Of a stretch of 64,000 nt of DNA, positions 5,273 to 62,233 are shown in pieces. The stretch covers positions 744,001 to 808,000 of the forward strand of contig JANFAH010000019.1 of the NCBI GenBank assembly GCA_024663395.1. The letters run 5' to 3'. Positions within the stretch are counted from its first letter, which is position 1; each line of letters begins with the position of its first letter. The notes below the pieces were generated by a model. The model saw nothing but the letters and a program-made list of their open reading frames with translations. It did no database searches and had not been told where the DNA came from. This stretch comes from Pisolithus tinctorius (taxonomy: Eukaryota; Basidiomycota; Agaricomycetes; Boletales; Pisolithaceae). The position numbers and the translations under genes are program-made.

Positions 5273-7133
5273 TGTGAGTCAAAGTGTGGAAAGGTGGTGA
5301 AAACCAACCAATACCAACACAAAAGACAAATAAGAGCGAGTGGTGGTTTGCCTCTGTGGAACCTGGAGTGCAGAAACCTAAATGTGGGGGGGAACTTCAA
5401 GTGGAGGTGCTCCTGGCACAAGTCGACGACAAGTTATGCAGGAGTAGATAAGTGAGTGATGACTAGATGGGGGATGCTGAATAGAGTGAAGGTATTCAGC
5501 TGAAAGTACTCTGGCGTGATGATCTTTTGGATGTGCTCCTGGCGCAAGTCAATGACGAGTTACGCAGGAGTGGAAGAATGACTAAACAAGAGGTTGCTGA
5601 CTAAGCACAGATGATACTGCTGAAGATGAATAGAGGTAGATAGACCCTTGATGGAGCCTCAACTACCAATGATATGAATGAAGACAGATAGACTCTTCCG
5701 AATGAGCCTCAACTGTCGATGACGAGATATGCTGAACTGAGCTGACTTCTGAGTGACTTCTTGATTGCTGCTTGATTGATTCTGGGTAGCTAAGTACATG
5801 GGGGTTTATATACTGTGGGGGGAGCATAGCTTGTGACAAACAAGGCACAAACACTTGGTAAGTAATGAGTAAGGACTGAGTAATCATGATGAGTAAGTGA
5901 GAAACAAAAAGTAAGCAAGCAAAGAAGATTGGTAAGTATTGGCAATGAACGAGTCAAGGATAGTCAAAAGATCACAGAACGAGTCAAATGGAGTCAGAAA
6001 CTGAGTAAGCGCACTGGTACCACATTAGGGGGTGGCGATGCAAGTCAGACCTCGGCGGAGACATCTCTAGATCCAAAGATGGCATGACAGATGGATGGTG
6101 TTTCCAGATAAGGAAGTATTAATTCCAGAATTGAAGGGCATGAGTCAGGTGTCAAAGGGGGCTAGGGCGTTGGGGGTCTGTGGGGCAATGGGAAGCATAC
6201 ACGATCGTGTCTCCCACCCTTCCATCCTCTCAGTGAAGTTAACAAAAACTTCATGAATGGGGTTCTGATGGAGGAGGAGGAGAAGGAGGGACATCTTCTG
6301 CTGGATCTTGCAGTAAGAAGGCAAGATGCACGTCATACTTGTCATGGATGTGATCAGGGAGGCTGGAGAACAGTAGACTATGCTGCAGCTGTCGCAATGC
6401 GGGAAGAATGATGGACGAGACTGGAATAAAGACAGTGCAGGGAGCAGGGAGGAACGATCCATATGCTTCATCAAGAGGGGAGACTGAAATGACCACATAA
6501 GACCTTTCTAACCGAGTGACAGACCTGAGGCGACCAAAGAATGTCCTTCTGGAAGTCATACTGACAAGGAGAACACACTGACCAAGCTGCATGGGATGGG
6601 ATGGGGCTGACAATGATGGGATGAACCAGGGGGCTTCAGGATGGAAGCTGGTGGGAATGCCTGGCAGATATACGTAGCCATTGTCTCTGGCAAACGAGAC
6701 AAGCGAGATGATTGATGAAGAGGCAGCCATGATTGATGGACTTAGCGAAATGAGCATCTGACAGATGGAGTGCTGTAGAAATGTGCAGGGTGTGAGGATC
6801 CTCTCCAAATTTGGAAGGAAGAATCGTGTGGCTGAGCACTTTAAGCGAGTATGCGAACCGAGTTGATATCTTTGGAAACAGTGGAGATATGATGAAAACC
6901 AGAATGCCATACATGGGCGCTAAAAACTTTTAATGCGCGCTTAACTCGCTTCCTCTTTTCTCTTTAACACTGACAACTCGTTCTTGTGCGAAGGATGACT
7001 GTTAACGTCCAACAGTCTTTCTACGCATGAGGCCTTTAGTCTTCATCTGCATGCATGGGCATTGCGCGCAACTCGTCAACGAGTTAGGCAGAGTCAGCTG
7101 TAACCATGTCCACAACACCTTTGGTGTGTGACA
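5273..7133 (-). mobile_element. TGE1: TGT...ACA repeat unit, 1,861 bp, inside Gy2
   Basis: Read from its minus strand the unit begins TGTCACACACCAAAGG and ends TTTGACTCACA. It shares length, ends and internal order with TGE5 (60,373-62,233), and is homologous to TGE2-4. It interrupts the Gy2 frame between EPSTAAY and RSRWFCV. Restoring that frame requires one CCGC at the junction: it is present as CCGC (5269-5272 complement) and as a decayed CTGT (7134-7137 complement), giving a 4-bp duplication. A TATATAAA box lies at 5,805-5,812 (minus). Best read as a large solo LTR of an unseen retrotransposon; a TGT-ended DNA transposon is the alternative. Confidence 0.85.
6251..6730 (-). CDS. TGE1 159-aa conserved protein of unknown function
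   Basis: The open frame starts at an ATG that begins MAASSSIISLVSFARDNG and ends …SEPHS. The same 159-codon frame, with the same start and stop, occurs in TGE2, TGE3 and TGE4; TGE5 has one nonsense change. Conserved blocks are YVYLPGIPTSF, MTSRRTFFGRLRSVTRLERS, SFLPAPCTVFIPVSSIILP and LPDHIHDKYDVHL, with a Pro/Ser-rich tail. It has no signal peptide or transmembrane segment and no domain I recognise. The open frame extends upstream to 6910, but length conservation and Met placement favour 6730. It lies upstream of the unit's TATA box. Confidence 0.6.
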   Translation of the reverse strand: MAASSSIISLVSFARDNGYVYLPGIPTSFHPEAPWFIPSLSAPSHPMQLGQCVLLVSMTSRRTFFGRLRSVTRLERSYVVISVSPLDEAYGSFLPAPCTVFIPVSSIILPALRQLQHSLLFSSLPDHIHDKYDVHLAFLLQDPAEDVPPSPPPPSEPHS

Positions 7134-8180
7134 ACAGTAAGCTGCTGTAGAAGGTTCAACATGCCAGACTTGATGTGATCTTTAATCATTTCAATGACTT
7201 GGGCATGTATCACACTTGGAATAGGGATGTTGCATTAGACCCAAGGTGTGTGTGGAATTGTAGGGATCTTTACAGGTGGGAAATAGTGTTCATCTAGGTG
7301 TCCATGCTCAGTAAGTCCAAAGCAAATGCAGGCTTGTGAACCAAGATGAGCCAAGTCACAAGCTTAAGTTCTTCTGGCCAAAGCCAATCTGCAGGATCAA
7401 GGTCAAGTTCTGCAGCCTGTTCAGCAGTGAAGCAGATGCCCAGAGCAAAGTCTGGTGGATGGGTTGGAAGTGGTTGGAGGCCAGTGAGTGGGTCATCAGG
7501 CAGACTGTGCACAATGTGGTATTCTTCTGCCATTGGGGCAGGTACTGTCTGAACCTTCTTGGCAACTGGCTTGTCAATGAGAGTGTGAACCACGGGGTCT
7601 AGTTGATAAATGCTGTTGAATGTGGCTATAGCAGAGGGGTTTAGTATTGTCTGAGTGGAGGAGAGGAAAGCAAAAGCAGGTGAGGGTATTCTGGTGGGTA
7701 TGTTCTGTGATATGAGTGCTGCAGGCAAAGGGAAGTTCATTGAAGCAAAGGCTAGAGATGAGACTATGGGACTGAGGAATGGATAACAGCAGCTAAACAG
7801 GAAACAGGACATCTTAGTAGGCTCTTCCTGACCATTTGGCAGATCATCAATACTCAAAAACCCCATTCAACTATACTCTGGTGACTATGACAGTGCTTGC
7901 TACACTTGCAGCACAGACAGCCTTCATGCCATGGGTGCATGGGCAGAGTGTACTCATGGCCATCATTTGGGTCATGAAGAGTGATCTGCTGGCCACTGTC
8001 AGGATAGTCATTTGTTACCACACTCATGAGGCAAATGAATGGGTGACCAAGCAGCATGTTGAAGTTGGCATGCTCAATTACCTGTACTTGGAGCATGACT
8101 GGCCTGGCTCTGAAGTCAAGTTTCAGGTGCTCTAGAATGCCTACAGTAGTGTCTTTAGACATATTAGCAGATGTCATAGT
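7134..8180 (-). pseudogene. Gy2 pol: protease C-terminus and start of reverse transcriptase
   Basis: From 8,180 the minus strand continues the Gy2 protease: LKLDFRARPVMLQVQVIEHA, then the FNMLLGHPF flap-like block typical of these elements. It passes through a linker (PADWLWPEELKLVTWLIL) to IPTIPHTPWV and EPSTAAY, just before the catalytic reverse transcriptase core. Frame changes and a nonsense codon near 7,300 disrupt it. The left end joins 5,272 across TGE1 and the right end joins 16,294 across Gy1-B. Confidence 0.82.
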
Positions 8181-8917
8181 TGTCAAGTCCAGGCCTACTC
8201 TGACCAACTCCAACACTATATAAGGTCTAGGGGAGGGTCCAGAAGCAAGTCTGACACAGGAGAACAGAACTCCAACTGGCAGAGTGGTGGCAGGAACAAA
8301 GTCTGCCAAGGCAGAGGTGGAGTGGAGTGAGGGCGTCAGGTTTAGCTCGTGTGCTACCCCCTTGCACAATCTCAGCCCTCATATTTCAGAGGGAGAGTAC
8401 AGACAGAGAGTGTCGGAGGTAACTCCGACAGGCAGAAGATGGAATCAGAAGGAGTAGGAACTAAGTTGATATTCATACTGCAGAACAGCAGAGTATGATA
8501 CATGCTTTTATACTACTGCAAAGGTACAGTGACTGGAATTGGAACTGACATACAGAGACTCATAAATTTTCAAGTAAAATTTCCTGGACGACGAATGAAG
8601 GGTAGACGGAGGACATTCGAATGGGTGACACAGAACATCCAAAAAAGGAAACAGTCCAGGTGCTGGACCATGCGGTGTGCACGCTGCAGAGTACCTGACT
8701 GCGTGCTGTCAAGGAGAAGGCTGAAGGACGGTCACATGACTCTTCGGAGAACGGTCCGCCCAGTCCAGTAGGAGGGCAACACAAGTCTGACAGCAGTTGG
8801 AGCAGAGATGGTCCGCAACCAACAGAAGCTGGGCAGAGTTGGTGCAGAGTGGATGACTGACTGGTGGAAAAGGGTGCGGAGTGTATAGGGACTTATAATG
8901 AATGCACGGTCATGACA
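8181..8917 (-). repeat. Gy1-B 3' LTR
   Basis: The 737-bp LTR matches 15,557-16,293. Read on the minus strand it starts TGTCATGACC and ends TTGACA. A TATATAAG-like box lies near 8,217 (complement of the CTATATAAGG string). The stretch 8918-9110 beyond it holds the polypurine tract and the leader of the accessory gene. Confidence 0.92.
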
Positions 8918-9110
8918 GTGCCCCCCCCTTAGGGCCTGAACCCCTGAAGGCCTCATGTATGGGAAGAGATCAACATGAGTTGATCATTTGAAACTACCTT
9001 GATGCCTTGAGGACAATGGTTTAGCTGCAGCAGAGCTCCGTTGGAGTTTGAAGAACCGCTTAAAAACACGTGTTAGGGTACCGACCCCTTGTCTTTTCCC
9101 CCCCACCACC

Positions 9111-10330
9111 ATGTCTTCCCAACGCCAGAGCAAAACCCCCCAGCCAACCCCCAGCCACATCCACGACTACTCCCAAGTCATGGATGAAGAGTTGGTCATC
9201 CTCACCGACAACTCCACTGACACCGAGCAGGAGAAGTCCGTGGAGAAGGTGCGCCAATGGGAGGAGGCTGAGCGGAGAGAGAGAGAGCACAAGGCAGAGT
9301 GCAGGGCCAAGCACGAGGAGGCCAAGAGGTGGAAGGCGGAGGAAGAGAGACTGGAAGCGGAGTGAAGGAAGAGAGTGGAGGAGGAAGAGGAGGTGCGAAG
9401 GAAGAAGGCAGCAGAGGAGGAGGCAGAAAGACAGAGGCAGAGGGTCTCTGAGGAGAGAGCCCAGGCCAGGTGAGAGGAGGCTGCACAAAGGTGAGTGGTG
9501 GAGTAATGTGGGTCAGGCGGAGCTGACTCGTAGCTCTACCTCTGCAGGTTATGCAGTGCGGTATATGATGTCAACACTGCCCAGAGGGTCCCTGGGACCT
9601 CTGTGGTGGCCACTGCAACCAGGCGCCCACCTGTACTCACTGTGTAGCAAGCTTGACAGTGGGACAGTGCGAGCCAGGGCAAGGCAAGACCAGGGCCTGC
9701 CTGCCCTGCCACAAGAAAAAGAAGGTGTGCAGCTGGACGAGGGAGGATGCGGTGGCAGGACCATCGCAGAAGAGAGCAGGGACAGGGAGCTCCTGAGGGG
9801 AGAAGAAGAAGAAGCCACAAGGGAAGGGGAAGGAGAGAGCGATGGAGACAGAAGAGGCGGACAACGAGCAGGAGGCGGGCAGAGACGAAGATGAACCAGC
9901 AACCCCACTCGAGGGTCCTTCAGGTGCGGGAGTGCACACATGGTGGGCAGAGTGGGAGTGGGAGCAGCAGCTGCAGGCCATGGAGAGACAGGCTGAAGCA
10001 CACGAAAATGCTGTGCTGGCCTTCGAGAGGATGGCAGAAGCAGAGGAATGGATGGCGGAGGCGGCAGAGCGGACAGCTGATGAGTGGGCGTTGTACCGCA
10101 CCTGGGCAGAGTGGGCAGAGATGAGGAGGAGGGAGGACACATGAGAAGCCAGGATGGCCAAGCTTGAGCGCACAGGTGGAGGGTGGAAGAGGGCTCAGTT
10201 GGAGGCAGCAGAGGACCAGCAAGAGGAAGTGGATGAAGGTGTGGAGGGGGACAACAAGGAGGAAGTTGAGGGAGGGCAGGAAGGTGGTGAAGAACAGGAG
10301 GGTGGCAGAGAGCAGGCAATGGAAGAGTAG
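9111..10330 (+). pseudogene. Gy1-B antisense accessory gene, decayed
   Basis: The gene lies opposite to gag-pol between the polypurine tract and the integrase end. Exon 1 starts MSSQRQSKTPQPTP at 9111, followed by an acidic stretch (DEELVILTDNSTDTEQEK) and a long Glu/Arg-rich coiled coil. It carries TGA at 9363-9365 and another TGA near 9,470. A GTGAGT donor at about 9,491 and a CAG acceptor near 9,548 join exon 2, which holds the remains of the cysteine cluster, broken by TAG and TGA. The C-terminal half has WWAEWEWEQQLQ, RMAEAEEWMAEAAERTADEW and an acidic tail ending QAMEE. Gy1-A preserves the intact equivalent. A T-run at 10,337-10,356 follows the stop. Confidence 0.75.
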
Positions 10331-10506
10331 AATAGTTTTTTTTTTTTTTTTTTTTGTATATTTTTTGTACTACTATGAAACAGACCTGTGACTTTGTTCG
10401 TGACTCTGAGAAGTGAAATGGATAAGCGGAGAAAATTCTAAAGTACTTAAGGTAGTGCAGTGAAGGGCAGAGTTGGCCCATGGAGGAAGGTTATGTGGGT
10501 GGAGTA

Positions 10507-13500
10507 TTATGGTGGAGGTTGATATGGGCCAGGTTTGTGCAGATACCGTTCATGGAAGGCGGAAACTATGTCAGAAGCGTGATCTAGCTCAGTTGCAAGC
10601 AACCAAGAGGTTTCTTCGTTGGTGTTCTTGTAACCAGCCCAGCGGACTAGATACAAGAGTTGACAGTGGCGGTGGCGGCAGTCCACCTTAGAGTTGAGTA
10701 TCTCTGACACTTCATACTCAAGGTCACCGTTGACATCCACTGGCAGAGGTGGAGGTTGTTGTCAGTTTGGGAAAGGGTTAGCTGCTGTGGCTTCTAGTTG
10801 TGAGACATGGAAGACCAGATGTACTGAGCGCATAGAGTCAGGGAGCTTAAGGGTGACAGAATGCGTACCTGGCCTGGCCAAGATGGTGAATGGGCCTAAG
10901 TACTTTTCAGAGAGTTTTTCCAAAGGACAAGTGGAGCAGAAGTACTTGGCTTTGACATAGGCCTGTTCTCTGACCTTGAACCCAGGCGGAGGTATGCGTT
11001 TAGCATCTGCTGGACCCTGGTAGCGCTGTTGAGCAGTGGACATTTCGGAGTGGAGGAAGTCATGAAGGGTGGAGAGCTCAACGACATAGTCATGAGCCCT
11101 TAGGGAAGTGAAGTCTTGGTCAGGGACCACAGACAGGTTTGGATGGTATCCCTTATTAGCGAAGAAGGGAGAAACTCCAGTAGTCACACTTGGTGTGTTG
11201 TTGAAAGTGAACTCCACTAGAGGTAACAGCTCAGCCCAGTTGTCTTGTTGGTAGTTGCAGTAAACATGAAGGTACTGTTCAAGGGTCTGGTTCGTTCGCT
11301 CAGTCTGGCCATCGCCTTCTGGGTGGTAACCCAAAGTGAAGTGAAGACGCATATCAAGGGCCTTTCCTAGGGAGCAGAAGAAGTGTGAGACGAACTCAGG
11401 ACCTCTGTCAGAGGTGACATTAGCTGGAACTCCATGCTTGGAGAAGACATGGGTTAGGAAGAGCTTAGCGAGTTCGGCAGAGGTGATGGAGTCATGGGTG
11501 GGGATGAACACCGCTTGCTTTGAGAGGCGGTCCACTACCATGAGTATGGTGGAGTAGCCATCGGAGTCTGGGAGGTGTTCGATGAAGTCCATGGAGATGG
11601 AGTTCCAAGGTCTCTCTGGGATGGGGAGTTGCTTCAGTAGACCATAGGGGCGGTGTCGCAGAGTTTTGCTCCATCCACAGGCGGTGCAAGACCTGATGTA
11701 CCCCCTCACGTCAGAGCAGAGGTTAGGCCACATGTAGTCCCTGCGGATGAGTTCTAAGGTGTGGTTTTGCCCGAAATGGCCTGCTAGAGGATGGTCATGC
11801 TTGAACCGAAGCACTCAGAGGTGGAGATCATCAATGTTGGGGACAAAGATGCGACCGTTAAGGCAGAGTAGACCGTCAGAGTCCAGGGACCACTGAGGCT
11901 TAGTCAGAGTTGGAAGATGGCTGGCGGAGACAGGATTGGAGGGTAGGGCGGAGATGATGTCGGAGTGCAAGCACTCAACATCAAAGACCATGGCAGTGTG
12001 GAGCACAGGTGCCATGAGGGTGGTGGTATGGAGGGACAATGCGAGTTGCTCCTGTGTAAACATAGGGCGGAGGTTGTGAGGATTTACCTGTGCATAGTCC
12101 CTATCCCCCCCTTTTGGGTAGATGTCCCAATGTTGCGTAAGTGCATTGGGTTTGGCCCCAAGGCAGCCAGGTCGGAAACAGATGGAAAGGTTAAATTGAG
12201 AAAGGTACTCTGACCAGCAGGCCTGTCAACGGGTGAGAACCTTAGAGGTGGAAGAATACTCAAGGTTTTTGTGGTCCATCACCACATTGACAGGTAAGGC
12301 AGAGCCTTCTAAGTAATGCTGCCAATGGCAGAAAGCCTCGAAGATAGCCAACAGCTCCTTGTCATGGGTATCATAGTTGAGTTCTGGTGTGGTCATGGTG
12401 TGAGAGTAGAAAGCGACTGGGCGGAGTTCACTGTCAGAGCAGGTGATCAACAAAATGCCAGCAATGGCATAGTCAGAGGTGTCAGTTTCCACTGTAAGTG
12501 GAGCATCAGGAACCCAGTGAGTGAGAATAGGAGCAGAGCTGAAGGCATCCTTCAGGTGGAGGAAAGTGGAGCAGCACTCCTCAGAAAAGTTCCAAGGAGC
12601 ACCCTTTCGCATGAGGTGAGTGAGTGGAACGATGATGTCGGAGTAGTTATTAATGAATCGTCTGTAGAAATTTGCAAAACTGAGGAAAGACTGGATGTCT
12701 CACACCTTCCGTGGCTCAGGCCAGTCGTGGACTGCCTGAACCTTCTCAGTGGACATGGTGAGACCAGAGGGAGAAAGAACATAACTGAGGTACTCGACGG
12801 AGTCGGAGTGAAACTCGCACTTCTCTGGCTTGGCATAAAGACCATGCTTTCAAAGGCAGCGGAGTACCTCTTTTACATGTTCATGGTGCGACTCCATGTT
12901 CTGCGAATAAATTAAGATGTCATCGAGGTATACCACGATGCAGACATTGAGCATGTCTGCAAAGATGCTATTGATGAATCACTTGAAGGCCACAGGCGCA
13001 TTAGTCAGACTGAATGGCATTACTCGCCACTCGTAAGAACCATAACGAGTGCGGAATGCCATTTTCCATTCATCTCCATCTGTGATGCGGACCAGATGAT
13101 AGGCATGGTGGAGGTTGATCTTGGTATAGACTTTAGCATGGCTTGGGGAGTTGAGTAGGTCAGAGATGAGCGGCAGTGGATAGCGGTCTTTTTTCATGAT
13201 TTTGTTGAGTCCTCAATAGTCTATGCAGAGGTGGAGTGAACCATCCTTCTTCTTTATGAAGAGGACAGGGGCACCATGAGCAGAGGTGGACTGCTTGATG
13301 AAACCATAGCCAAGATGCTCGTCAATGAAGGTGTGGAGAGCTTCAAGCTCTGGCAGAGAAAGAGAGTAGATCATGCCAATGGGTGGAGAGGCTCCTTCCT
13401 CGAGGTCGATCTTGAGATCAAACAAGCAGTGTGGTGGAAGTTCTGTGGCCTTGTCTTTACTAAAGATGTCGGCAAACTCGTGATACTCAGGAGGAACCGA

Positions 13501-15495: not shown

Positions 15496-15556
15496 GATGG
15501 CGTAAGTTTTTTGGAGGACAGAAAATGAGATCGTACAAGTGTGAGTACGAATATAC

Positions 15557-16971: not shown

Positions 16972-17374
16972 TGTCACACACCAAAGGTGTTGTGGACATG
17001 GTTACAGCTGACTCTGCCTAACTCGTTGATGAGTTGCGCGCAATGCCCATGCATGCAGATGAAGACTAAAGGCCTCATGCATAGAAAGACTGTTGGATGT
17101 TAACAGTCATCCTTCGCACAAGAACGAGTCATCAGTGCTAAAGAGAAAAGAGGAAGCGAGTTAAGCGCACGTTAAAGGTTTTTAGCGCCTGTGTATGGCA
17201 TTCCGGTTTTTGTCATATCTCTGCCGTTTCCAAAGATATCGACTCCATTCCCACACTCGCTTAAAGTGCTCAGCCCCACGATTCTTCCTTCCAAATTTGG
17301 AGAGGATCCTCGCACCCTGCACATTTCTACAGCACTCCATCCATCAGACGCTCATTTTGCTAAGTCCATCAATC

Positions 17375-17854
17375 ATGGCCACCTCTTCATCAGTCATCTC
17401 GCTTGTCTCATTTGCCAGAGACAATGGCTACGTATATCTGCCAGGTGTTCCCACCAGCTTCCATCCTGAAGCCCCCTGGTTCATCCCATCGTTGTCAGCC
17501 CCGTCCCGTCCCATGCAGCTTGGTCAGCATGTTCTCCTTGTCAGTATGACTTCCAGAAGGACATTCTTTGGTCGCCTCAGGTCTGTCACTTGGTTAGAAA
17601 GGTCTTATGTGGTCGTTTCAGTCTTCCCTCTTGATGAAGCATATGGATCGTTCCTCCCTGCTCCCTGCACCATCTTTATTCCAATCTCGTCCATCATTCT
17701 TCCCACATTGCGACAGCTGCAGCATAGTCTACTGTTCTCCAGCCTCCCTGATCGCATCCATGACGAGTATGACGTGCATCTTGCCTTCTTACTGCAAGAT
17801 CCAGCAGAAGATGTCCCTCCTTCTCCTCCTCCTCCATCGGAACCCCATTCATGA
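17375..17854 (+). CDS. TGE2 159-aa conserved protein of unknown function
   Basis: The frame is open from MATSSSVISLVSFARDNG to …SEPHS, with the same length as the frames in TGE1, TGE3 and TGE4. Differences from TGE1 include VTRLERS to VTWLERS and VFIPVSS to IFIPISS. An in-frame ATG further upstream (17,195) exists, but the start at 17375 is the one consistent with equal length in all five copies. No known domain was recognised. Confidence 0.6.
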   Translation: MATSSSVISLVSFARDNGYVYLPGVPTSFHPEAPWFIPSLSAPSRPMQLGQHVLLVSMTSRRTFFGRLRSVTWLERSYVVVSVFPLDEAYGSFLPAPCTIFIPISSIILPTLRQLQHSLLFSSLPDRIHDEYDVHLAFLLQDPAEDVPPSPPPPSEPHS

Positions 17855-18292
17855 AGTTTTTGTTAACTTCACTGAGAGGATGGAAGGGTGGGAGACGCGA
17901 TTGCGTATGCCTCCCATTGCCCCACAGACCCCCAACGCCCTAGCCCCCTTTGACACCTGACTCATGCCCTTCAATTCTGGAATTAATACTTCCTTATCTG
18001 GAAACACCGTCCATCTGTCATGCCATCTTTGGGTCTAGAGATGTCTCCGCCGAGATCTGACTTGCATCGCCACCCCCTAATGTGATATCAGTGTGCTTAC
18101 TCAGTTTCTGATTCTATTTGACTCGTTCTGTGATATTTTGACTATCCTTGACTCGTTCATTGCCAATACTTACCAATCTTCTTTGCTTGCTTACTTTTTG
18201 TTTCTCACTTACTCATCATGATTACTCAGTCCTTACTCATTACATACCAAGTGTTTGTGCCTTGTTTGTCACAAGCTATGCTCCCCCCACAG

Positions 18293-18300
18293 TATATAAA
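18293..18300 (+). promoter_or_regulatory. TATA box of TGE2, shared core in all TGE copies
   Basis: TATATAAA is followed about 8 bp on by TGTACTTAG. The same TATA plus TGTACTTAG(G/C)TA core occurs in TGE4 (from 30,087) and, with TATAAAG, in the Gy2 LTR (complement of 32,400-32,420). This supports an LTR-like promoter. Confidence 0.55.
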
Positions 18301-18825
18301 CCCCCATGTACTTAGCTACCCACAATCAATCAATCAAGAAGTCACTCAGCAGTCAGTTCAGTGCCTATCTCGTCGTCGACAGTTGAGGCTCATTTGGGAG
18401 AGTCTATCTGTCTTCATTCATATCATTGGTAGTTGAGGCTCCATCAAGGGTCTATCTACCTTCATTCATTCATCTGAAGTATCATCTGTGCTCTGTCAGC
18501 ACACCTGCTTAGTCATCCATTCACTCCTGCGTAACTCGTCATTGACTTGCGCCAGGAGCATATTCTATCAAAAGTCCATTACCCCCAAGTACTTTTGGCT
18601 GAACACCTTCACTCTGTTCAGCATCCCCTTCCCAATCATTGTCCATTCATCTTCTCCTGCATAACTCAACGACGACTTGCACCAGGAGCACCTCCACTTG
18701 AAGTTCCCCCCCACATTTAGGTTTCTGCACTCCAGGTTCCGCAGAGGCACACCACCACTCGCTCATATTTGTCTTTTGTGTTGGTTTTGGTTGGTTTTCA
18801 CCACCTTTCCTCACTTTGACTCACA

Positions 18826-19638: not shown

Positions 19639-20352
19639 TGTCATAACTGTGCGTTCGTCATAGGTCTTTACTCACTCCGCAACCTTCTCCGCCGGTCACT
19701 CGCTCACTCCGCACCAACTCCGCCCACCTTCTATCGTCTACGAACCATCTCCGCTCCGACTGTTGTTGGACTTGTGTTTCTCTCCTACCGGACCGAGCGG
19801 TCCATTCTCTGAAGGGTCGTGTGACTACCTTCGCAGTCAGGTACTCCACAGCGCGCTCACCGCATGGTCCAGCATCTGGACTATTTCCTTTTCTAGATGT
19901 TCTGTGTTACCCGTTCGTATGTCCTCCGTCTACCCTTCATTCGTCGTCCAGGAAATTTTACTTGAAAATTTATGAGTCTCCGTATGTCAGTTCTGATTCC
20001 AGTTACTGTACCTCCGTAGCGGTATAAAAGCATGTACTGTACTCCACTGTTCTTCAGTACGAATATCAACTTAGTTCCTACTCCTCCTGACTCCGTCTTC
20101 TGTCTGTCGGACTTACCTCCGACTCTCTGTCTATACTCTCCCTCTGAAATACGAGGGCTGAGATCGTGCAAGGGGGTAGCGCATGAGCTAAACCCGATGC
20201 CCTCACTCCGCTCCGCCTCTGTCTCGGTGGACTTCGTTCCTGCCACCTCTCCGCTAGTCGGAGTTTCGTTCTTCCCTGTCGGACTTGCTTCCGAACCACT
20301 CTCTAGACCCTATATAGCATCGGAGTTGGTCGGAGTAGGCCCGGACTTGACA
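19639..20352 (+). repeat. Gy1-A 5' LTR
   Basis: The 714-bp LTR runs from TGTCATAACTG to TTGACA, with a CTATATAGC box near 20,310. The leader 20,353-20,413 is non-coding and shared with Gy1-B. Confidence 0.94.
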
Positions 20353-20413
20353 GTATATTCGTACTCACACTTGTACGGTCTCCTTTTCTGTCTTCCAAAA
20401 AACTTACGCCATC

Positions 20414-26269: not shown

Positions 26270-28075
26270 TGTGAGTCAAAGTGAGGTTCAGTGGTGGAAA
26301 CCAACCAAAACCAACACAAAAGACAATGAAAGCGAGTGGTGGTGTGCCTATGCGGTACCTAGATGGTGGAACCTGTTCTTTGGGAGGGTTTTTGTGAACT
26401 ACAACACTCAAAGATGGGTGCTGAGGGTTGGGGGTGCTCCTGACGAAGAAGGAGCAGGAATGCGAGAGGAAGCGATGGGGTAGACTGCTGTCAGCCTACA
26501 GAAGGATGGATGATGACTTAATTCGATGCCCTGAGCTGCACTGAGCTCAGGGAGGACTTGGAGCAAAGTAGATTGATGATAGACGATAATAAGCAAAGTA
26601 GACGATAGTTAGACCCTTAATAAAGTCTCAACTATCGAAGCTGCTGAATGATTACTGAGAGATGATAAATTGCGAGCAAGAGGGGCTCTCTGATGTCTTT
26701 TTTTTTGCTACCTAAGTACAGTGATTTATATACAGCACAGGGGCATTGCCTATGGAAAACAAGGTGCAAACACTTGGTAAGTGATTGGTAACTGATGAGT
26801 AAGGAATGTAAGTGGTGGGTAATCGTCTTAGAGAGCATTGGTGAGCATTGGTAAGGATAAGTAAGCCAAAAAGCGAAGAATCAGTAAGCAAGGGCAAAAG
26901 ATTGGTAAGTATTGGCAATAGGTGAGTCAAAGACAGTCAGAATGTCAAAGTATGAGTCAAGTAATGTCAGAAACTGGGAAAGCGCACTGGAATCACATTA
27001 GGGGGAGGCTGTGCATGTCATATCTCGAAGAGATCGTTTCTGGGCCAAAGTGGGATGACAGAGAGGCAGCACTGATCTGATGCCGATATAGTACATCCAA
27101 AAGCGGACAGGGTGAGTCAGATGTCAACAGGGGTCAAGCTTTTGGGGTCTGTGGGGTGACAGGAGCATAGGGGATCGCAACTTTCCCCCCCTTACTGTCC
27201 TCTCAGTGAAGCAAATAAAAACTTCATGAATGAGGCTCTGTTGGAAGAGAGGATGAAGGGGGAGCGTCTTCTGCTGTATCTTGCAATAAGGAGGCAAGAT
27301 GTGCATCATACTCGTCATGGATGCGATCAGGGAGAGTGGAGAACAGTAGATTATACTGTAGCTGTCGCAATTTTGGAAGAATGATGGACGAGACTGGTAT
27401 GAAGACATTGCAGGGAGCAGGGAGGAAGGATCCATATGCTTCTTGGACTGGAGAGACTGAAACGACCACATAAGACCTTTCCAAGCGAATGACAGACCTG
27501 AGGCGACCAAAGAATGTCCTCCTAGAGGTCATACTGAAAAAAAGAACACGCTGTCCAAGCTGGATGGGCTGAGAGGGGGCAGACGAGGGTGGGATGTACC
27601 AGGATGCTTCAGGACGGAAGCTAGTAGGAACTCCTGGTAGATATATGTAGCCATGGTCCCTAGCAAAGGGGACAAGCGAAATGATTGATGTGGAGGCAGC
27701 CATATCAGAAGAATTAGCGAAATGAGCGTCTTTTGGAGGGAGTGCTGTAGAAACGTGTGGAGTGTGCAAATCCTTTCCAATTTTGGAAGGTAGGATCGCG
27801 TGGCTGAGCACTACAAGCGAGTGTGTGAATGGTTTCGGTGTCTGCTGAATTGGCGGAGATATGTCGAAAACCAGAATGCCGTACACGGGCGCTTAAGAAC
27901 TTTATTGGCGCTTAACTCGCTTCCTCCTTTTTCTTTGGCATTGACAACTCGTTCTTGTGCGAGGGATGACTGCCGACATTTCTGGCTGTCCTTCTTCGCA
28001 TGAGGGCTATGGTCTTCATCTCCATTCATCAGCTACATCCATGTCCACCTCACCAAACACCTTTGGTGTGTGACA
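26270..28075 (-). mobile_element. TGE3: left arm of the large inverted repeat, 1,806 bp
   Basis: The unit starts on the plus strand with TGTGAGTCAAAGTG and ends GTGTGTGACA. Outer flank is CCGC (26,266-26,269); inner flank is GCAG. It interrupts exon 1 of the Gy1-A accessory gene at an LEA|ERR junction. It is nearly identical to TGE4 in inverse orientation: the only length difference I found is a T-run of 9 against an A-run of 8. Confidence 0.9.
27224..27703 (-). CDS. TGE3 159-aa conserved protein of unknown function
   Basis: The frame opens MAASTSIISLVPFARDHG and ends …PTEPHS. It is identical in translation to the TGE4 frame and clearly diverged from TGE1/2/5 (for example VSPVQEAYGSF in place of VSPLDEAYGSF). 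Length is kept at 159 codons. No known domain was recognised. Confidence 0.6.
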   Translation of the reverse strand: MAASTSIISLVPFARDHGYIYLPGVPTSFRPEASWYIPPSSAPSQPIQLGQRVLFFSMTSRRTFFGRLRSVIRLERSYVVVSVSPVQEAYGSFLPAPCNVFIPVSSIILPKLRQLQYNLLFSTLPDRIHDEYDAHLASLLQDTAEDAPPSSSLPTEPHS

Positions 28076-28743
28076 GCAGTGAGCGCGCTGTGGAGTACCT
28101 GACTGCGAAGGTAGTCACACGACCCTTCAGAGAATGGACCACTCGGTCCAGTAGGAGAGAAACACAAGTCTGACAACAGTCGGAGCGGAGATGGTTCGTA
28201 GACGATAGAAGGTGGGCAGAGTTGGTGCGGAGTGAGCGAGTGACCAGCGGAGAAGGTTGCGGAGTGAGTAAAGACCTATGATGAACGCACGGTTATGACA
28301 GTGCCCCCCCCTTAGGGCCTGAACCCCTGAAGGCCGTATGTACGGAACGAGATCAACACGAGTTGATCATTTGAAATTACTTTGATGCCTCGAGGATAAT
28401 GGCTTTAGCCGCAGCAGAGCTCCGGCGGAGTTCAAAGTACTGCTTAAAAACACGTGTTAGGGTACTGAACCTTCGTCCTTTTCTCCCATCACCATGCCTT
28501 CCCAGCGCCAGAGCAACACCCCCCAGCCAACCCCTGGCCACGTCCGCGACTACTCTCAAGTCGCGGATGAAGAACTGGTCGTCCTTACCGACGATTCCAC
28601 CGACACCGAGCGGGAGAAGTCCATGGAGAAGGCGCGCCGACGAGAGGAGACCGAGCGGAGAGAGAGAGAACGCGAGGCCGAGCGCAAGGCCAAACGCGAG
28701 GAGGCCAAGAGGCGGAAGGTGGAGGAGGAGAGGTTGGAGGCGG
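28076..28743 (-). other. flipped 668-bp Gy1-A segment between the TGE arms
   Basis: Read on the minus strand, this piece contains the start of the Gy1-A accessory gene (28,743-28,494), its leader, the polypurine tract and the first 221-225 bp of the 3' LTR (28,300-28,076). Its orientation is opposite to the rest of Gy1-A on both sides. Inner flanks GCGG (28,740-28,743) and GCAG (28,076-28,079) are the complements of the outer CCGC flanks, as expected after an inversion. Confidence 0.88.
28494..28743 (+). pseudogene. Gy1-A antisense accessory gene, N-terminal piece
   Basis: The frame starts MPSQRQSNTPQPTP, followed by DEELVVLTDDSTDTERE and a Glu/Arg-rich coiled coil. It ends at RLEA where the TGE4 end begins. 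Its continuation (ERRKRAEEEEEA) is on the minus strand at 26,269. It matches 9111-9360 of Gy1-B. Confidence 0.85.
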
Positions 28744-30548
28744 TGTCACACACCAAAGGTGTTTGGTGAGGTGGACATGGATGTAGCTGATGAATGGAGA
28801 TGAAGACCATAGCCCTCATGCGAAGAAGGACAGCCAGAAATGTCGGCAGTCATCCCTCGCACAAGAACGAGTTGTCAATGCCAAAGAAAAAGGAGGAAGC
28901 GAGTTAAGCGCCAATAAAGTTCTTAAGCGCCCGTGTACGGCATTCTGGTTTTCGACATATCTCCGCCAATTCAGCAGACACCGAAACCATTCACACACTC
29001 GCTTGTAGTGCTCAGCCACGCGATCCTACCTTCCAAAATTGGAAAGGATTTGCACACTCCACACGTTTCTACAGCACTCCCTCCAAAAGACGCTCATTTC
29101 GCTAATTCTTCTGATATGGCTGCCTCCACATCAATCATTTCGCTTGTCCCCTTTGCTAGGGACCATGGCTACATATATCTACCAGGAGTTCCTACTAGCT
29201 TCCGTCCTGAAGCATCCTGGTACATCCCACCCTCGTCTGCCCCCTCTCAGCCCATCCAGCTTGGACAGCGTGTTCTTTTTTTCAGTATGACCTCTAGGAG
29301 GACATTCTTTGGTCGCCTCAGGTCTGTCATTCGCTTGGAAAGGTCTTATGTGGTCGTTTCAGTCTCTCCAGTCCAAGAAGCATATGGATCCTTCCTCCCT
29401 GCTCCCTGCAATGTCTTCATACCAGTCTCGTCCATCATTCTTCCAAAATTGCGACAGCTACAGTATAATCTACTGTTCTCCACTCTCCCTGATCGCATCC
29501 ATGACGAGTATGATGCACATCTTGCCTCCTTATTGCAAGATACAGCAGAAGACGCTCCCCCTTCATCCTCTCTTCCAACAGAGCCTCATTCATGAAGTTT
29601 TTATTTGCTTCACTGAGAGGACAGTAAGGGGGGGAAAGTTGCGATCCCCTATGCTCCTGTCACCCCACAGACCCCAAAAGCTTGACCCCTGTTGACATCT
29701 GACTCACCCTGTCCGCTTTTGGATGTACTATATCGGCATCAGATCAGTGCTGCCTCTCTGTCATCCCACTTTGGCCCAGAAACGATCTCTTCGAGATATG
29801 ACATGCACAGCCTCCCCCTAATGTGATTCCAGTGCGCTTTCCCAGTTTCTGACATTACTTGACTCATACTTTGACATTCTGACTGTCTTTGACTCACCTA
29901 TTGCCAATACTTACCAATCTTTTGCCCTTGCTTACTGATTCTTCGCTTTTTGGCTTACTTATCCTTACCAATGCTCACCAATGCTCTCTAAGACGATTAC
30001 CCACCACTTACATTCCTTACTCATCAGTTACCAATCACTTACCAAGTGTTTGCACCTTGTTTTCCATAGGCAATGCCCCTGTGCTGTATATAAATCACTG
30101 TACTTAGGTAGCAAAAAAAAGACATCAGAGAGCCCCTCTTGCTCGCAATTTATCATCTCTCAGTAATCATTCAGCAGCTTCGATAGTTGAGACTTTATTA
30201 AGGGTCTAACTATCGTCTACTTTGCTTATTATCGTCTATCATCAATCTACTTTGCTCCAAGTCCTCCCTGAGCTCAGTGCAGCTCAGGGCATCGAATTAA
30301 GTCATCATCCATCCTTCTGTAGGCTGACAGCAGTCTACCCCATCGCTTCCTCTCGCATTCCTGCTCCTTCTTCGTCAGGAGCACCCCCAACCCTCAGCAC
30401 CCATCTTTGAGTGTTGTAGTTCACAAAAACCCTCCCAAAGAACAGGTTCCACCATCTAGGTACCGCATAGGCACACCACCACTCGCTTTCATTGTCTTTT
30501 GTGTTGGTTTTGGTTGGTTTCCACCACTGAACCTCACTTTGACTCACA
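28744..30548 (+). mobile_element. TGE4: right arm of the large inverted repeat, 1,805 bp
   Basis: The unit runs from TGTCACACACCAAAGG to TTTGACTCACA and is followed by CCGC (30,549-30,552). It sits inside the Gy1-A 3' LTR: the LTR bases before it (CGCGCTCACTGC, complement of 28,076-28,087) and after it (CCGCATGGTCC) are contiguous in the intact 5' LTR as CGCGCTCACCGCATGG. A TATATAAA box starts at 30,087. Confidence 0.9.
29116..29595 (+). CDS. TGE4 159-aa conserved protein of unknown function
   Basis: This is the mirror copy of the TGE3 frame, with an identical translation from MAASTSIISL to PTEPHS. Shared blocks across all TGE copies are YLPGVPTSF, MTSRRTFFGRLRSV, GSFLPAPC and ISSIILP-like strings. 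Function is unknown. Confidence 0.6.
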   Translation: MAASTSIISLVPFARDHGYIYLPGVPTSFRPEASWYIPPSSAPSQPIQLGQRVLFFSMTSRRTFFGRLRSVIRLERSYVVVSVSPVQEAYGSFLPAPCNVFIPVSSIILPKLRQLQYNLLFSTLPDRIHDEYDAHLASLLQDTAEDAPPSSSLPTEPHS

Positions 30549-31041: not shown

Positions 31042-31046
31042 GGAAC

Positions 31047-41830: not shown

Positions 41831-41885
41831 AATTTTCAAACTCCGTCACGGCATTGCTCTCGAATTTGCCACTTCCAGAGCGCTT

Positions 41886-54715: not shown

Positions 54716-55117
54716 AATATCTCATCGCAGAAAGCCACCTTCGGACAAAAAGGGGAGGGAAAAAAATGAAGATAACGTGAGTCGGTTGGGTCAGGAAACA
54801 TGCACGATGACTATGCTTACATCGCCTCGAATTATTGTTCTTATTGTTGTAATTGTTGGGGTAATTGTTGGGATAAAAGCGGCTAGTCTGGAGAGTCAGT
54901 ATATGTATCAGAAAAGATAAGTAGTCACCCACTCACTGATCGCCTGCTGATAACATCATATATTGCCTTTGGTGCTGGACACCTGTCGCTCCTTCACCCA
55001 CTGCCCAGTGTGCCCTCCGTCCTAGAGATGATGAATTCCCACGTGTATATCCTGCCTTCCTCATTGGTAAGTGGAATGAAATGAAAATGTCATGAAGTCA
55101 CCTGACCTTTGCCTTAG

Positions 55118-56940: not shown

Positions 56941-58953
56941 CAGCTGATTTTGACCAAATGACCATGGTAATTACCACAAAAGCAGTTACAGAATTCATGG
57001 CAACTACCACTTCCCAATATAGACAATGCCCCCTGAGTGACAACCTCTGTCGGTGTTTGAAAAAAATTCAGATTGGAATGTTCCCACAGCAGGTTACCCT
57101 GTCACAAATATTGATAATTTGCACCTGTACTGTGGCTATACAGATGAGCATGTGACCAGTAGATGTGATGGTCACATGATGAGTGACATAAGCAGAGATG
57201 ACCCTAGATCACGTGATTTTTATGTAATTGATTACGTGATGTGACCCTCCGGAGCGTTCTGTTATGTAATTTATCACGTGGTTGTGGGAAAATATGCATG
57301 TGACTTAATCAATGTCACATGACTGTACTCATCATGTGATCTCACCTCTAGCACTCTGCACATGACTCAATCCATATCACATGACCAGCAATCCCACCCC
57401 TATTCGCATGCTGGGCATTTGTGGCTGTGCTAAAAATGCGAATTGTGTCCCCACCCATTCAATTCTTGACATATGGATCTGGATTTTTGTGTGTAGAATA
57501 GGCTACCATGTTGCTACACATTGTCAAAGGCACAGCTGGTCTTGTCCAGTAGTCGCTGAGATATAAAGGAAATGAAAATGCCAACAAAACATCACATCTG
57601 AAACTTCAGGAGGGTTGAAGAAGATTCCTTCAATGCATTTCCAAAGTTTCAAGTTTATCCATTTAGAATTGAGTGAACAGCAAGCCAAATACTGATCCCA
57701 GAAGCGTGGGAAAGCCTCAAAAAGAGAAAATAAAATAGTGGAGATTTTGAAAACATATCAAAAACATAGCACAGCACATCCCACAGTGCAGCTACCACTA
57801 CCAGAACTTAGGTGAGGGATATTGGGACATGGTGGAAGATATTGGTAACAAGTGCCTAATGTGATACTCACTGCAAATGGTCAAAAATGCGAAATGGTAC
57901 ACTTGACTCATTGAGACAATGGGAGATTTATGCCAGTGCAAGGTCAACACCACTACCCCATTGCACAAATTTTCGCAATTTTGACATGTTTAAGTGGATA
58001 TCTCACCAGGCACATGGTGCCAACATGGTAGGCTATATTGCTGCATTCCTCACCCAAAGTCTGGGGTTGGCAGGGTCACTGTGATGTGTGCAAATCCACA
58101 TTTTTGATATGTTTTCAAAATCTCCATATGTTATTTTGGGACTTTTTCCCACTTTCCCACACTCTTGAATCTTTATTTTGCATCTTGCTCTCTCAGTTCT
58201 GAGTGGGGTGACACCAAACTTTGTCTATGAATTGATATGCATGTGTCCAACCCTTCTGAAGTGTCAGATATGGCATGAAGGATGTGTAAGATGAATGATG
58301 TGATGTTTTGTTGGCATTTTCATTTCCTTTATATCTCAGTGACTACTGGACAAGACCAGCTGTGCCTTTGACAATGTGTAGCAACATGGTAGCCTATTCT
58401 ACACACAAAAATCCAGATCCATATGTCAAGAATTGAATGGGTGGGGACACAATTCGCATTTTTAGCACAGCCACAAATGCCCAGCATGCGAATAGGGGTG
58501 GGATTGCTGGTCATGTGATATGGATTGAGTCATGTGCAGAGTGCTAGAGGTGAGATCACATGATGAGTACAGTCATGTGACATTGATTAAGTCACATGCA
58601 TATTTTCCCACAACCACGTGATAAATTACATAACAGAACGCTCCGGAGGGTCACATCACGTAATCAATTACATAAAAATCACGTGATCTAGGGTCATCTC
58701 TGCTTATGTCACTCATCATGTGACCATCACATCTACTGGTCACATGCTCATCTGTATAGCCACAGTACAGGTGCAAATTATCAACATTTGTGACAGGGTA
58801 ACCTGCTGTGGGAACATTCCAATCTGAATTTTTTTCAAACACCGACAGAGGTTGTCACTCAGGGGGCATTGTCTATATTGGGAAGTGGTAGTTGCCATGA
58901 ATTCTGTAACTGCTTTTGTGGTAACTACCACATTGCTTGGTCAAAGTCAGCAG
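56941..58953. repeat. 2-kb imperfect palindrome (foldback element)
   Basis: The left half pairs with the right half about a centre near 57,947. Outer 0.6 kb of each arm (about 56,951-57,597 and 58,298-58,943) is highly similar. The inner halves still pair but with more mismatches and indels (GAGATTTTGAAAACATATCA occurs on both sides). It is rich in TCACGTGA and TCACATGA. No coding gene was found; the two 60-90 codon frames in the arms are mirror images. Exact ends and target duplication could not be fixed; TTTGACCA is a candidate terminal string. Confidence 0.88.
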
Positions 58954-59415
58954 ACTCTGGTGGTAACAGCTTATTGCAACATGGAGGGAGGTCTCGGAGA
59001 CAGATGGAAAAGTGAGATTATCATATTCTGAAGACACCGCTTCTTCCTCATCAGATGAGGTGCTAGGAGTACTGGTGGATTCAGAACGAGCCTGTGAAGG
59101 GGCTCTCTTTGGGTAGGGAGATCCAAACCACGTGGCTGGAGTCTTGGAAGCTACAACAAACTTGGGGGCCAGAGTAGATTTCTGGGATTGTGCCAGAACT
59201 TCAGAGACATGCACCTTCTTTGACGAAAGTGTATGGGCTGGGGGGAGGACTTTGTCAGCAAGTAGGCCTGAGCTCTTTGAATGAGATGCTTTTCCAAAGA
59301 GCTCAAGTTGGTCAGTAAGCATAGTAGGAAATGGTGGAGGTGCGGCTGAATCATGGTCGTAGAATGGTGAAATGCTCTTAATCATGGAAGGCATAGCTGA
59401 GTACGAACAAGACAA
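58954..59415 (-). pseudogene. Ser/Pro-rich hypothetical gene next to the palindrome
   Basis: The minus-strand frame starts MSCSYSAMPSMIKSISPFYD and includes PPPFPTMLTDQLELFGKASH, TWFGSPYPKRAPSQARSEST and a Ser-rich acidic stretch. It runs into the palindrome, so its natural C-terminus may have been displaced. Low-complexity composition makes homology hard to judge; no domain was recognised. It is divergent from the WD40-like gene. Confidence 0.4.
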
Positions 59416-59467
59416 GTGGTTTGATTGATAGGGCCATTGATCAGTTGGTCACCTGCATTTAACGCAC

Positions 59468-59775
59468 TAGTATAATAATTAACTTCCGTAGATGTAAACA
59501 TGGGTTACCCGACAAAAGTCGTTGTGATCACCCAATGAAAAGTCCTAGAAGTGAAAGAATTGTCATGACTGCATACAACCCATGCACTAATACGCATCAC
59601 CCAACAAAATTTAACATGGTAGTATAACAATTAACTTCCGTAGATGTAAATGTGTGGTCACCCGACAAAAGTCGTTGTGGTTGTGCAATGAATCGTCCTA
59701 TTAAAAGTGAAAGAGTCATCATGACTGCGTACAACCCATTTAATAATACACACCATTCAACAAAAAGCCGCAAGT
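59468..59775 (+). repeat. 152-bp tandem duplication upstream of the WD40-like gene
   Basis: TAGTATAA(T/C)AATTAACTTCC begins at 59,468 and again at 59,620. Both copies continue through ACCCGACAAAAGTCGTTGTG and CATGACTGC(A/G)TACAACCCAT with substitutions and small indels. It lies between two divergent genes (59,415 minus and 59,872 plus), so it fills the likely shared promoter region. Confidence 0.85.
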
Positions 59776-60372
59776 TAAACAAAAACACGTCACATAGCTC
59801 CAAAATACAATTACCATCAGTACTTTAAATAAGAAGGACGAGCGACGAGCGTCGACCGACCTTCACACAACATGTTCTCTGCTATTTTTATCAGATCACC
59901 ACAGCACTATAAGAATGTAGCATCTTTCACTACAAGTGCTGCATCAGTCCATTCCCTTGCTTTATCTAATGATGGCGACATAGTCACTAGTGGAGGTAGG
60001 ACCTAATTGTGTCAACACACATGCCAAACTAAAGTAGGGTCTAGGCACCGGTGGCATCAGACTTTGGAACATCAAATCATGAAAGGAACTTACATGTGCC
60101 AATCACAAATCCTATGGCACAATTAGTTGCGCAACTTGGATCAGGACAAAGCATTGTTCAGTGGAAACACTCTGCTATGGCACAGGGATGGGCTACCTAG
60201 TATTCATGTGGCTGAATCCAGTTGATGTGAGTGCTGTGCGATCTGAATATGGGAGCTGTGTCTAGATTCCGAAAAGAATCATTATCAGGAAATTACCACC
60301 CGAAGACTAGGAGCAGGATTTGAGATTACCTGCATTGCATGGGATATATCATGGCCTGACGCTGGAGCGCGG

Positions 60373-62233
60373 TGTGAGTCAAAGTGTGGAAAGGTGGTGA
60401 AAACCAACCAATACCAACACAAAAGACAAATAAGAGCAAGTGGTGGTTTGCCTCTGCGGAACCTGGAGTGCAGAAACCTAAATGTGGGGGGGAACTTCAA
60501 GTGGAGGTGCTCCTGGCGCAAGTCGACAACGAGTTATGCAGGAGTAGATAAGTGAGTGATGACTAGATGGGGGATGCTGAATAGAGTGAAGGTATTCAGC
60601 CGAAAGTACTCTGGCGTGATGATCTTTTGGATGTGCTCCTGGCGCAAGTCGATGACGAGTTACGCAGGAGTGGAAGAATGACTAAACAAGAGGTTGCTGA
60701 CTAAGCACAGATGATACTGCTGAAGATGAATAGAGGTAGATAGACCCTTGATGGAGCCTCAACTACCAATGATATGAATGAAGACAGATAGGCTCTTCCG
60801 AATGAGCCTCAACTGTCGATGACGAGATATGCTGAACTGAGCTGACTTCTGAGTGACTTCTTGATTGCTGCTTGATTGATTCTGGGTAGCTAAGTACATG
60901 GGGGTTTATATACTGTGGGGGGAGCATAGCTTGTGACAAACAAGGCACAAACACTTGGTAAGTAATGAGTAAGGACTGAGTAATCATGATGAGTAAGTGA
61001 GAAACAAAAAGTAAGCAAGCAAAGAAGATTGGTAAGTATTGGCAATGAACGAGTCAAGGATAGTCAAAAGATCACAGAACGAGTCAAATGGAGTCAGAAA
61101 CTGAGTAAGCGCACTGGTACCACATTAGGGGGTGGCGATGCAAGTCAGACCTCGGCGGAGACATCTCTAGATCCAAAGATGGCATGACAGATGGATGGTG
61201 TTTCCAGATAAGGAAGTATTAATTCCAGAATTGAAGGGCATGAGTCAGGTGTCAAAGGGGGCTAGGGCGTTGGGGGTCTGTGGGGCAATGGGAAGCATAT
61301 GCAATCGCATCTCCCACCCTTCCATCCTCTCAGCGAAGTTAACAAAAACTTCATGAATGGGGTTCTGATGGAGGAGGAGGAGAAGGAGGGACATCTTCTG
61401 CTGGATCTTGCAGTAAGAAGGCAAGATGCACGTCATACTTGTCATGGATGCGATCAGGGAGGCTGGAGAACAGTAGACTATGCTGCAGCTGTCACAATGT
61501 GGGAAGAATGATGGACGAGACTGGAATAAAGACGGTGCAGGGAGCAGGGAGGAACGATCCATATGCTTCATCAAGAGGGGAGACTGAAACGACCACATAA
61601 GACCTTTCTAACTGAGTGACAGACCTGAGGCAACCAAAGAACATCCTTCTGGAAGTCATACTGACAAGGAGAACACACTGACCAAGCTGCATGGGATGGG
61701 ATGGGGCTGACAACGATGGGATGAACCAGGGGGCTTCAGGACGGAAGCTGGTGGGAATGCCTGGCAGATATATGTAGCCATTGTCTCTGGCAAACGAGAC
61801 AAGCGAGATGATTGATGAAGAGGCGGCCATGATTGATGGACTTAGCGAAATGAGCGTCTGACGGATGGAGTGCTGTAGAAATGTGCAGGGTGCGAGGATC
61901 CTCTCCAAATTTGGAAGGAAGAATCGTGGGGCTGAGCACTTTAAGCGAGTATGCGAACCGAGTTGATATCTTTGGAAATGGTGGAGATATGATGAAAACC
62001 AGAATGCCGTACATGGGCGCTAAAAACTTTTAATGCGCGCTTAACTCGCTTCCTCTTTTCTCTTTAGCACTGATGACTCGTTCTTGTGTGAAGGATGACT
62101 GTTAATGTCCAACAGTCTTTCTACGCATGAGGCCTTTAGTCTTCATCTGCATGCATGGGCATTGCACGCAACTCGTCAATGAGTTAGGCAGAGTCAGCTG
62201 TAACCATGTCCACAACACCTTTGGTGTGTGACA
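60373..62233 (-). mobile_element. TGE5: TGT...ACA repeat unit, 1,861 bp, inside the WD40-like gene
   Basis: It has the same length as TGE1 and nearly the same sequence. Flanks are GCGG (60,369-60,372) and GCAG (62,234-62,237), a 4-bp duplication with one G-to-A change. Dropping one copy restores DAGARIAVGMHD in the host gene. Confidence 0.9.
61351..61830 (-). pseudogene. TGE5 159-codon frame with one nonsense codon
   Basis: The frame starts MAASSSIISLVSFARDNGYI at 61,830. A TGA at 61,492-61,494 (after SSIILPTL) replaces the CGA present in TGE1-4 (TLRQLQ or KLRQLQ). The rest of the frame down to 61,351 is otherwise conserved. Confidence 0.75.

Follow-up and report, generated by a model that had tools for sequence, protein, structure and literature searches.

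We analysed a 64,000-nucleotide stretch of the Pisolithus tinctorius genome (the window; C19:744001-808000 of a 92.5-Mb, 221-contig assembly) that carries five copies of a large repeated unit. Our data indicate, with a probability of about 0.82, that the five units are solo long terminal repeats (LTRs) belonging to a Ty3/gypsy retrotransposon that is abundant and has been active recently, and that the U3 region of this element carries an accessory gene of ~159 codons. A first-pass annotation of the window had read the units as very large solo LTRs coding for a small protein upstream of a TATA box. This reading is borne out by the full elements found elsewhere in the genome, the consistent 4-bp duplications, and the purifying selection acting on the frame.

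The parent element is a Ty3/gypsy retrotransposon

All five units proved to be present where they had been predicted (Table 1), with the shared ends TGTCACACACC...CTTTGACTCACA; read in the gag-pol sense, they start with TGTCACACACCAAAGGTGTT and finish with CTTTGACTCACA. With at most one mismatch allowed, the genome contains 1,695 occurrences of a 20-mer from the LTR 5' end, compared with 0 of a reversed control, which excludes chance. The genome-wide search that the first-pass annotation had proposed also recovered full elements, in which units in direct orientation flank gag-pol. Specifically, same-strand LTR pairs ~9.65 kb apart on contigs C114 and C8 enclose a 1313-aa gag-type frame and pol, and pol also lies between direct LTRs on C18 and C28, where pol alone was examined. 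The outer ends of these elements carry the 4-bp duplications CCGG (C114), TCGG (C8), GTGA/GCGA (C18) and CCGT (C28). Their LTR pairs differ at 12/1867, 1/1856, 2/1813 and 1/1814 sites, respectively; being near-identical, they mark all four elements as young.

The pol of C114 shows the domain order RVT_1 (residues 2-179), RNase H models (within 245-373), the integrase zinc finger H2C2 (519-572) and the integrase core rve (601-681; 27.9 bits, below the cut-off of 32.6), and the 930 aa of this one pol gave no chromodomain match at E-values up to 10. We assign the element to Ty3/gypsy on the basis of the features tested, namely direct LTRs around gag-pol, the order of reverse transcriptase (RT), RNase H and integrase, and TG...CA ends with a short target duplication. 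The junction between the LTR and the putative primer-binding site (PBS), ...CACATCTGGAGCCC, is conserved in 80 places of the genome. Both this count and that of the LTR ends miss ends that have decayed further. Assuming that every junction stands for an element with a pair of LTRs, the solo or orphan LTRs number roughly 1,500.

The interior decides between this assignment and two other origins. The TGT...ACA ends and 4-bp duplications had led the first-pass annotation to consider a Ginger-type derivative as well. A Ginger DNA transposon consists of a DDE integrase gene between terminal inverted repeats and lacks RT. Here the units are direct repeats, the interior that they enclose codes for RT, RNase H and integrase, the LTR pairs of four full elements are near-identical, and PBS-type junctions recur 80 times; a Ginger-type or other DNA transposon derivative is thereby ruled out. 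A non-autonomous composite mobilised by another family, comparable to large retrotransposon derivatives or terminal-repeat retrotransposons in miniature, would suit the fact that most copies have no interior, but is extremely unlikely, as pol itself has at least 51 genome matches at 85-100% identity (with the best 49 candidates scored) and four pol-bearing elements carry these LTRs. A pair of units 9.5 kb apart on C10 was rejected as a full element; it consists of two solo LTRs with separate near-duplications and a different interior.

A frame in U3 evolves as a gene

The window copies fall into subfamily A (those starting at 5273, 16972 and 60373; ~1.85-1.86 kb) and subfamily B (26270 and 28744; ~1.81 kb), which are ~71% identical across the LTR. 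The internal TATA box noted in the first-pass annotation lies at LTR position 1322 (A, copy 16972) or 1344 (B, copy 28744), and the U3/R border would follow directly after it, as placed in copy 16972. The open reading frame (ORF) occupies LTR positions 404-883 (A) or 373-852 (B), in the sense of gag-pol. Since it lies upstream of the TATA box, it falls within U3. As the first-pass annotation had noted, its length (480 nt) is identical in all five copies; it is open in four of five, copy 60373 having a TGA. Beyond the window, the frame measures 480 nt in all 58 distinct copies (62 units found, less four duplicates with identical flanks, L013, L021, L025 and L033).

Several measures demonstrate that the constraint on this stretch follows the reading frame. 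The LTR shows 65 distinct indel events in A and 16 in B; none falls inside the ORF, where 15.6 and 3.8 would be expected. Differences between A and B amount to 21.8, 15.8 and 45.6 at the first, second and third codon positions, and the excess at third positions, scored in 60-column windows, stands out over LTR 405-764 and is not seen in the windows that border the ORF. The ratio of nonsynonymous to synonymous divergence (dN/dS, omega), which the first-pass annotation had suggested computing across copies, reveals purifying selection: under a maximum-likelihood codon model, omega between A and B is 0.355-0.462 in 12 of 12 random quartets, with twice the log-likelihood difference from omega 1 being 14-25 over a grid of the transition/transversion ratio kappa. 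For comparison, one pol quartet gave 0.175. The synonymous divergence (dS) between A and B is 0.49 in the ORF and 0.45-0.50 in pol; this equality indicates that the gene has travelled with the element. As judged from these sequence comparisons, it is firmly supported that the 159-codon frame is a genuine gene under purifying selection.

The extent and strand of the gene were also examined. An open stretch of ~222 codons was rejected as the true protein, because subfamilies A and B disagree in its upstream in-frame part and no third-position excess appears in the 60 nt ahead of the ATG. An antisense gene was rejected as well, there being no antisense frame of at least 60 aa in copy 5273.

A rival view is a frame without function, conserved only through dense promoter or RNA signals in the U3 of gypsy solo LTRs. 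In its favour, the divergence between A and B averages 0.21 in the 400 nt upstream of the ORF, close to the 0.17 within it, and many frames in the genome are broken. Against it, the constraint is specific to the frame, with a third-position excess, a lack of indels and an omega well below 1, and relatives at the protein level reach down to 42% identity. We regard this explanation as very unlikely.

The gene in replicating and leftover copies

The LTRs of full elements and the remaining LTRs differ in how often codon 113 has been lost. On C1 and C2, where 10 of 11 junctions gave a match for full-element LTRs, these LTRs comprise 17 open codons and 1 TGA, compared with 78 and 66 in all others (p = 7e-4); counted once per full element, there are 9 open and 1 TGA (p = 0.04). 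The change from CGA to TGA at this codon recurs in hundreds of copies, consistent with CpG deamination. An internal TGA was also seen in 9 of 150 scored ORF matches, a set that favours the best matches. These figures agree with a gene that is kept by the replicating lineage and lost in leftover copies, and selection seems to act on the replicating lineage.

An alternative is uptake by the host, in which the solo LTRs would form a dispersed host gene family, for instance one for defence against the retrotransposon, much as mice are protected from exogenous virus by endogenous mouse mammary tumour virus (MMTV) Sag. The ~1,500 solo or orphan copies, many of them open at codon 113, and the gene models that the National Center for Biotechnology Information (NCBI) holds for the frame in four Pisolithus species would agree with this, and the available part of one report offers a precedent in MMTV Sag as an endogenous LTR-encoded antiviral protein (PMC11998498). 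Against it, codon 113 is lost more often in solo copies than in full elements, omega is higher within subfamilies than between them, and the divergence of the frame tracks that of pol. Host uptake thus appears quite unlikely.

A number of observations weigh against a selected gene of an intact gypsy element. Regarding the element, the pol of C8 contains 2 TGA, the one junction read before a 3' LTR shows no obvious purine run as a polypurine tract, and the PBS-type junction, though present at 80 places, was not matched to its tRNA. Regarding the coding signal, the third-position excess is weak over the final 120 nt of the frame, and an isolated non-coding window (LTR 1002-1060) leans the same way. 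The NG86 method (dN/dS 0.24 in frame; 1.00 and 1.81 once the frame is shifted) exaggerates the constraint, since most changes are transitions (kappa 17), and for this reason the codon model is trusted more; one antisense register gave 0.37, which we take to stem from shared wobble columns. Omega rises to 0.594 across the tree of 45 distinct intact frames (twice the log-likelihood difference ~31) and to 0.70 (A) and 0.73 (B) within subfamilies. Intact frames number 50 of the 58 distinct copies (seven others have a TGA at codon 113 and one has lost its start), and these copies, as the best matches to two window queries, are biased to young ones; genome-wide, the otherwise exact motif around codon 113 occurs 983 times, 576 open (CGA) and 407 with TGA. 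Many broken frames together with a dN/dS near 1 had been named in the first-pass annotation as arguing against the ORF; the former was found, as is expected of decay after insertion, while omega between A and B is below 1. Finally, singleton variants in subfamily A show 28 nonsynonymous to 21 synonymous changes, fewer replacements than expected under neutrality, so that relaxation in solo copies is not cleanly shown, and some constraint or sampling bias among the copies remains.

The encoded protein belongs to a family reaching beyond the named Pisolithus records

A single-sequence search returned 9 proteins, from P. tinctorius, P. orientalis and P. albus plus two Joint Genome Institute proteins, and a profile search returned 30 matches, now also in P. 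microcarpus and among environmental proteins, the latter 42-56% identical to the query. Relatives are thus present in all four of these Pisolithus species, with NCBI gene models. A second profile, built from eight of these proteins, gave 320 matches, of which 120 were listed. In an alignment of 81 sequences, the invariant and nearly invariant residues, the first Met aside, all lie between positions 11 and 98.

One environmental read-through protein, P0078, aligns with nt 8-229 of the B LTR (E 3e-5) and nt 143-811 of the A LTR (E 9e-37), the E-values being calculated for a database of five LTRs. Ten more long environmental proteins align with the LTR over the ORF, and several of them start well upstream of it. 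Together these alignments indicate, at the level of protein sequences, that the arrangement running from the LTR tip to the gene also occurs outside the named Pisolithus records. Three NCBI gene models (P0003, P0012 and P0014) are missing ~18 barrel-core residues present in other members, probably owing to a false intron.

Searches of Pfam and of PDB sequences gave no credible relative of the LTR protein. The predicted fold includes a small, possibly SH3/Tudor-like barrel that weakly resembles known barrels. Contact of the protein with chromatin or nucleic acid is a weak lead that we hold tentatively.

Target duplications point to insertion at CpG

Among the 58 distinct units, 4-bp duplications are exact in 19, one transition off in 16 and two transitions off in 5, which together make 40. 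Fourteen of the other 18 are explained: in 10, one of the two flanks belongs to the interior of an element (TCTGGAGCCC, TGCCGGTGGA or TGCCAGTGGA), and 4 are members of two inverted pairs. Non-matching flanks stay unexplained in four units (L047, the second unit of L075, L078 and L081). L030 and L048, each without one unit end, were never counted, and three of the removed duplicates have exact or one-transition duplications, the inclusion of which would slightly raise the counts. The duplicates stem from unit pairs on different contigs with identical flanks (L012/L013, L020/L021, L024/L025 and L032/L033), representing uncollapsed haplotypes or segmental duplications in the assembly.

The 4-bp duplications that had been read in the window hold directly for copy 16972 and, with one and two transitions, for copies 60373 and 5273, respectively, whereas neither 26270 nor 28744 has its own, owing to an inversion of the 668 bp that separate the two. 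Re-inverting this spacer in silico yields the duplications CCGC/CCGC and CTGC/CCGC, and the re-inverted junction matches an uninterrupted relative at 19664-20059 from end to end (396 bp, 95.7%). The restored duplications and the matching empty relative show that the two solo LTRs, lying in opposite orientation, recombined with each other and turned round the DNA that separates them. A second pair, on C203 (L083), has flanks that fit the same exchange when worked by hand. The first-pass annotation had also inferred duplications from restored host frames; with unit 5273 taken out, its flanks join into a gypsy RT motif that spans the junction (...EPSTAA|YRSRWFC...), within a host copy that has stops further upstream. 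A search of the available DNA for the joined flanks of 5273, 16972 and 60373 gave no uninterrupted relative of any of them.

The duplications share a centre. Among the exact ones, 14 of 19 are NCGN, while CpG makes up 2.6% of the flanking dinucleotides (p = 6e-19), and all 40 exact or near duplications are centred on CG, TG or CA. CG is kept on at least one side in 17 of the 21 near duplications; in the other four TG stands opposite CA, most simply a CpG that has decayed on both sides. From these footprints, the integrase seems to insert at CpG, mostly at NCGN sites. To our knowledge, this preference is unusually sharp for this kind of element, and a literature search found no paper on it.

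Table 1. Features of the LTR units in the window.
Feature	Position	Strand	Remarks
Solo LTR, subfamily A, 1861 bp	5273..7133	-	Flanks GCGG / ACAG
LTR ORF, 159 codons + stop	6251..6730	-	Intact; in copy 5273
Solo LTR, subfamily A, 1854 bp	16972..18825	+	Exact 4-bp duplication ACAT
LTR ORF, 159 codons + stop	17375..17854	+	Intact; in copy 16972
TATA box TATATAAA	18293..18300	+	~440 nt downstream of ORF; copy 16972
Solo LTR, subfamily B, 1806 bp	26270..28075	-	Left arm of inverted pair
LTR ORF, 159 codons + stop	27224..27703	-	Intact; in copy 26270
Spacer, 668 bp	28076..28743	.	Inverted via LTR-LTR recombination; re-inverted junction matches 19664-20059
Solo LTR, subfamily B, 1805 bp	28744..30548	+	Right arm of inverted pair
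LTR ORF, 159 codons + stop	29116..29595	+	Intact; in copy 28744
TATA box, subfamily B copy 28744	30087..30094	+	
Solo LTR, subfamily A, 1861 bp	60373..62233	-	Flanks GCGG / GCAG, one CpG transition
LTR ORF, 480 nt like others	61351..61830	-	TGA at codon 113; in copy 60373

Two further traits of the LTR were observed. The first 40 nt in both subfamilies contain, by eye, a small palindrome at the tip (ACACCAAAGGTGT in A; CACCAAA...TTTGGTG in B), a possible binding site for integrase or a regulator. In R-U5 (LTR 1353-1780), A and B diverge by 0.36-0.71 per 60-column window, far above U3, and this contrast indicates that the LTR is a mosaic. Apart from the LTRs, and unlike them, the window has a 634-bp inverted repeat (56965-57598 and 58297-58930), listed as 100% complementary, with arms 698 bp apart.

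Probable expression and proposed role of the LTR protein

In a full element, the ORF of the 3' LTR is situated near the 3' end of the genomic RNA, ~130 nt plus 400 nt beyond pol. The inferred 626-nt leader contains no GTRNGT donor, and the RNA as far as read has only two; a retrovirus-like spliced mRNA consequently lacks visible support. The leader without a donor-like site, together with the conserved 400 nt that precede the ORF, favours a promoter of its own in U3. Translation from a short mRNA, driven by a putative promoter within the LTR's first ~400 nt, stands at about even odds with the alternative of read-through or re-initiation on the genomic RNA, or splicing that escaped detection.

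With an accessory gene in U3, every LTR, paired or solo, starts with a copy of it, and we propose that a short mRNA from a putative U3 promoter would give rise to the LTR protein. The gene may help the element, given that the replicating lineage is where selection is seen and that it is weaker among the copies; the protein might then work in trans, during mobilisation or against silencing. Solo LTRs would form through LTR-LTR recombination and decay afterwards. A more far-reaching combination of these elements is rather unlikely as a whole: each LTR would be a stand-alone gene with a 5' promoter, the ~1,500 solo LTRs would be a dispersed source of a trans-acting barrel protein, this protein would read chromatin or methylated CpG and either steer the chromodomain-less integrase to NCGN or shield the family from CpG silencing, and the LTR gene family would be widespread in soil fungi.

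Discussion

Among the Ty3/gypsy elements of Boletales, P. tinctorius has undergone a large gypsy expansion, according to the part of PMC5689174 at hand. The present element resembles those described there in its direct LTRs, its gag, the order RT-RNase H-integrase in pol, the TG...CA ends and the solo LTRs. It differs in the conserved gene inside the LTR, of which that part of the paper makes no mention, and in that the one pol tested has no chromodomain match, whereas chromodomain elements are the most abundant gypsy group there (PMC5689174).

Other systems share single traits with this one. As in plant elements with additional ORFs (PMC7264820) and in Retrosat2 with its ORF0 (PMC3485330), an extra conserved ORF whose function is undescribed occurs in an LTR retrotransposon, and Retrosat2 likewise has very long LTRs, with TGTCACACCC ends; in the available parts of these papers, however, the plant ORFs are internal, either following pol ahead of the 3' LTR or preceding gag-pol, and not in the LTR. 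The crapaud element of Podospora is also fungal, with LTR subfamilies that diverged in one part of the LTR, but the section of PMC10787394 at hand describes two ORFs, gag and pol-type, and mentions no LTR gene.

The sag frame of MMTV lies on the sense strand, and like the present gene it is a whole coding frame within the LTR, in the direction of gag-pol and hence in every LTR. In the material available from PMC11998498, the product of sag is an LTR-encoded endogenous retrovirus protein. The likeness is one of position only, the sequences not having been compared directly; unlike the present element, MMTV is a vertebrate retrovirus with env, whose Sag acts on T cells. MMTV sag is the known case of an LTR-encoded protein; the Pisolithus gene, an LTR-borne accessory gene in a fungal retrotransposon, is its fungal counterpart in position.

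LTRs are usually taken as non-coding control regions, whereas here the LTR holds a conserved protein family, one with many environmental members and for which we found no described function. The apparent preference for NCGN targets would tie integration to CpG methylation in a way that can be tested. Wherever recombination leaves a solo LTR, it also leaves a potential gene copy, which alters what a solo LTR can do; if the gene indeed has its own promoter in U3, solo LTRs would be expressible.

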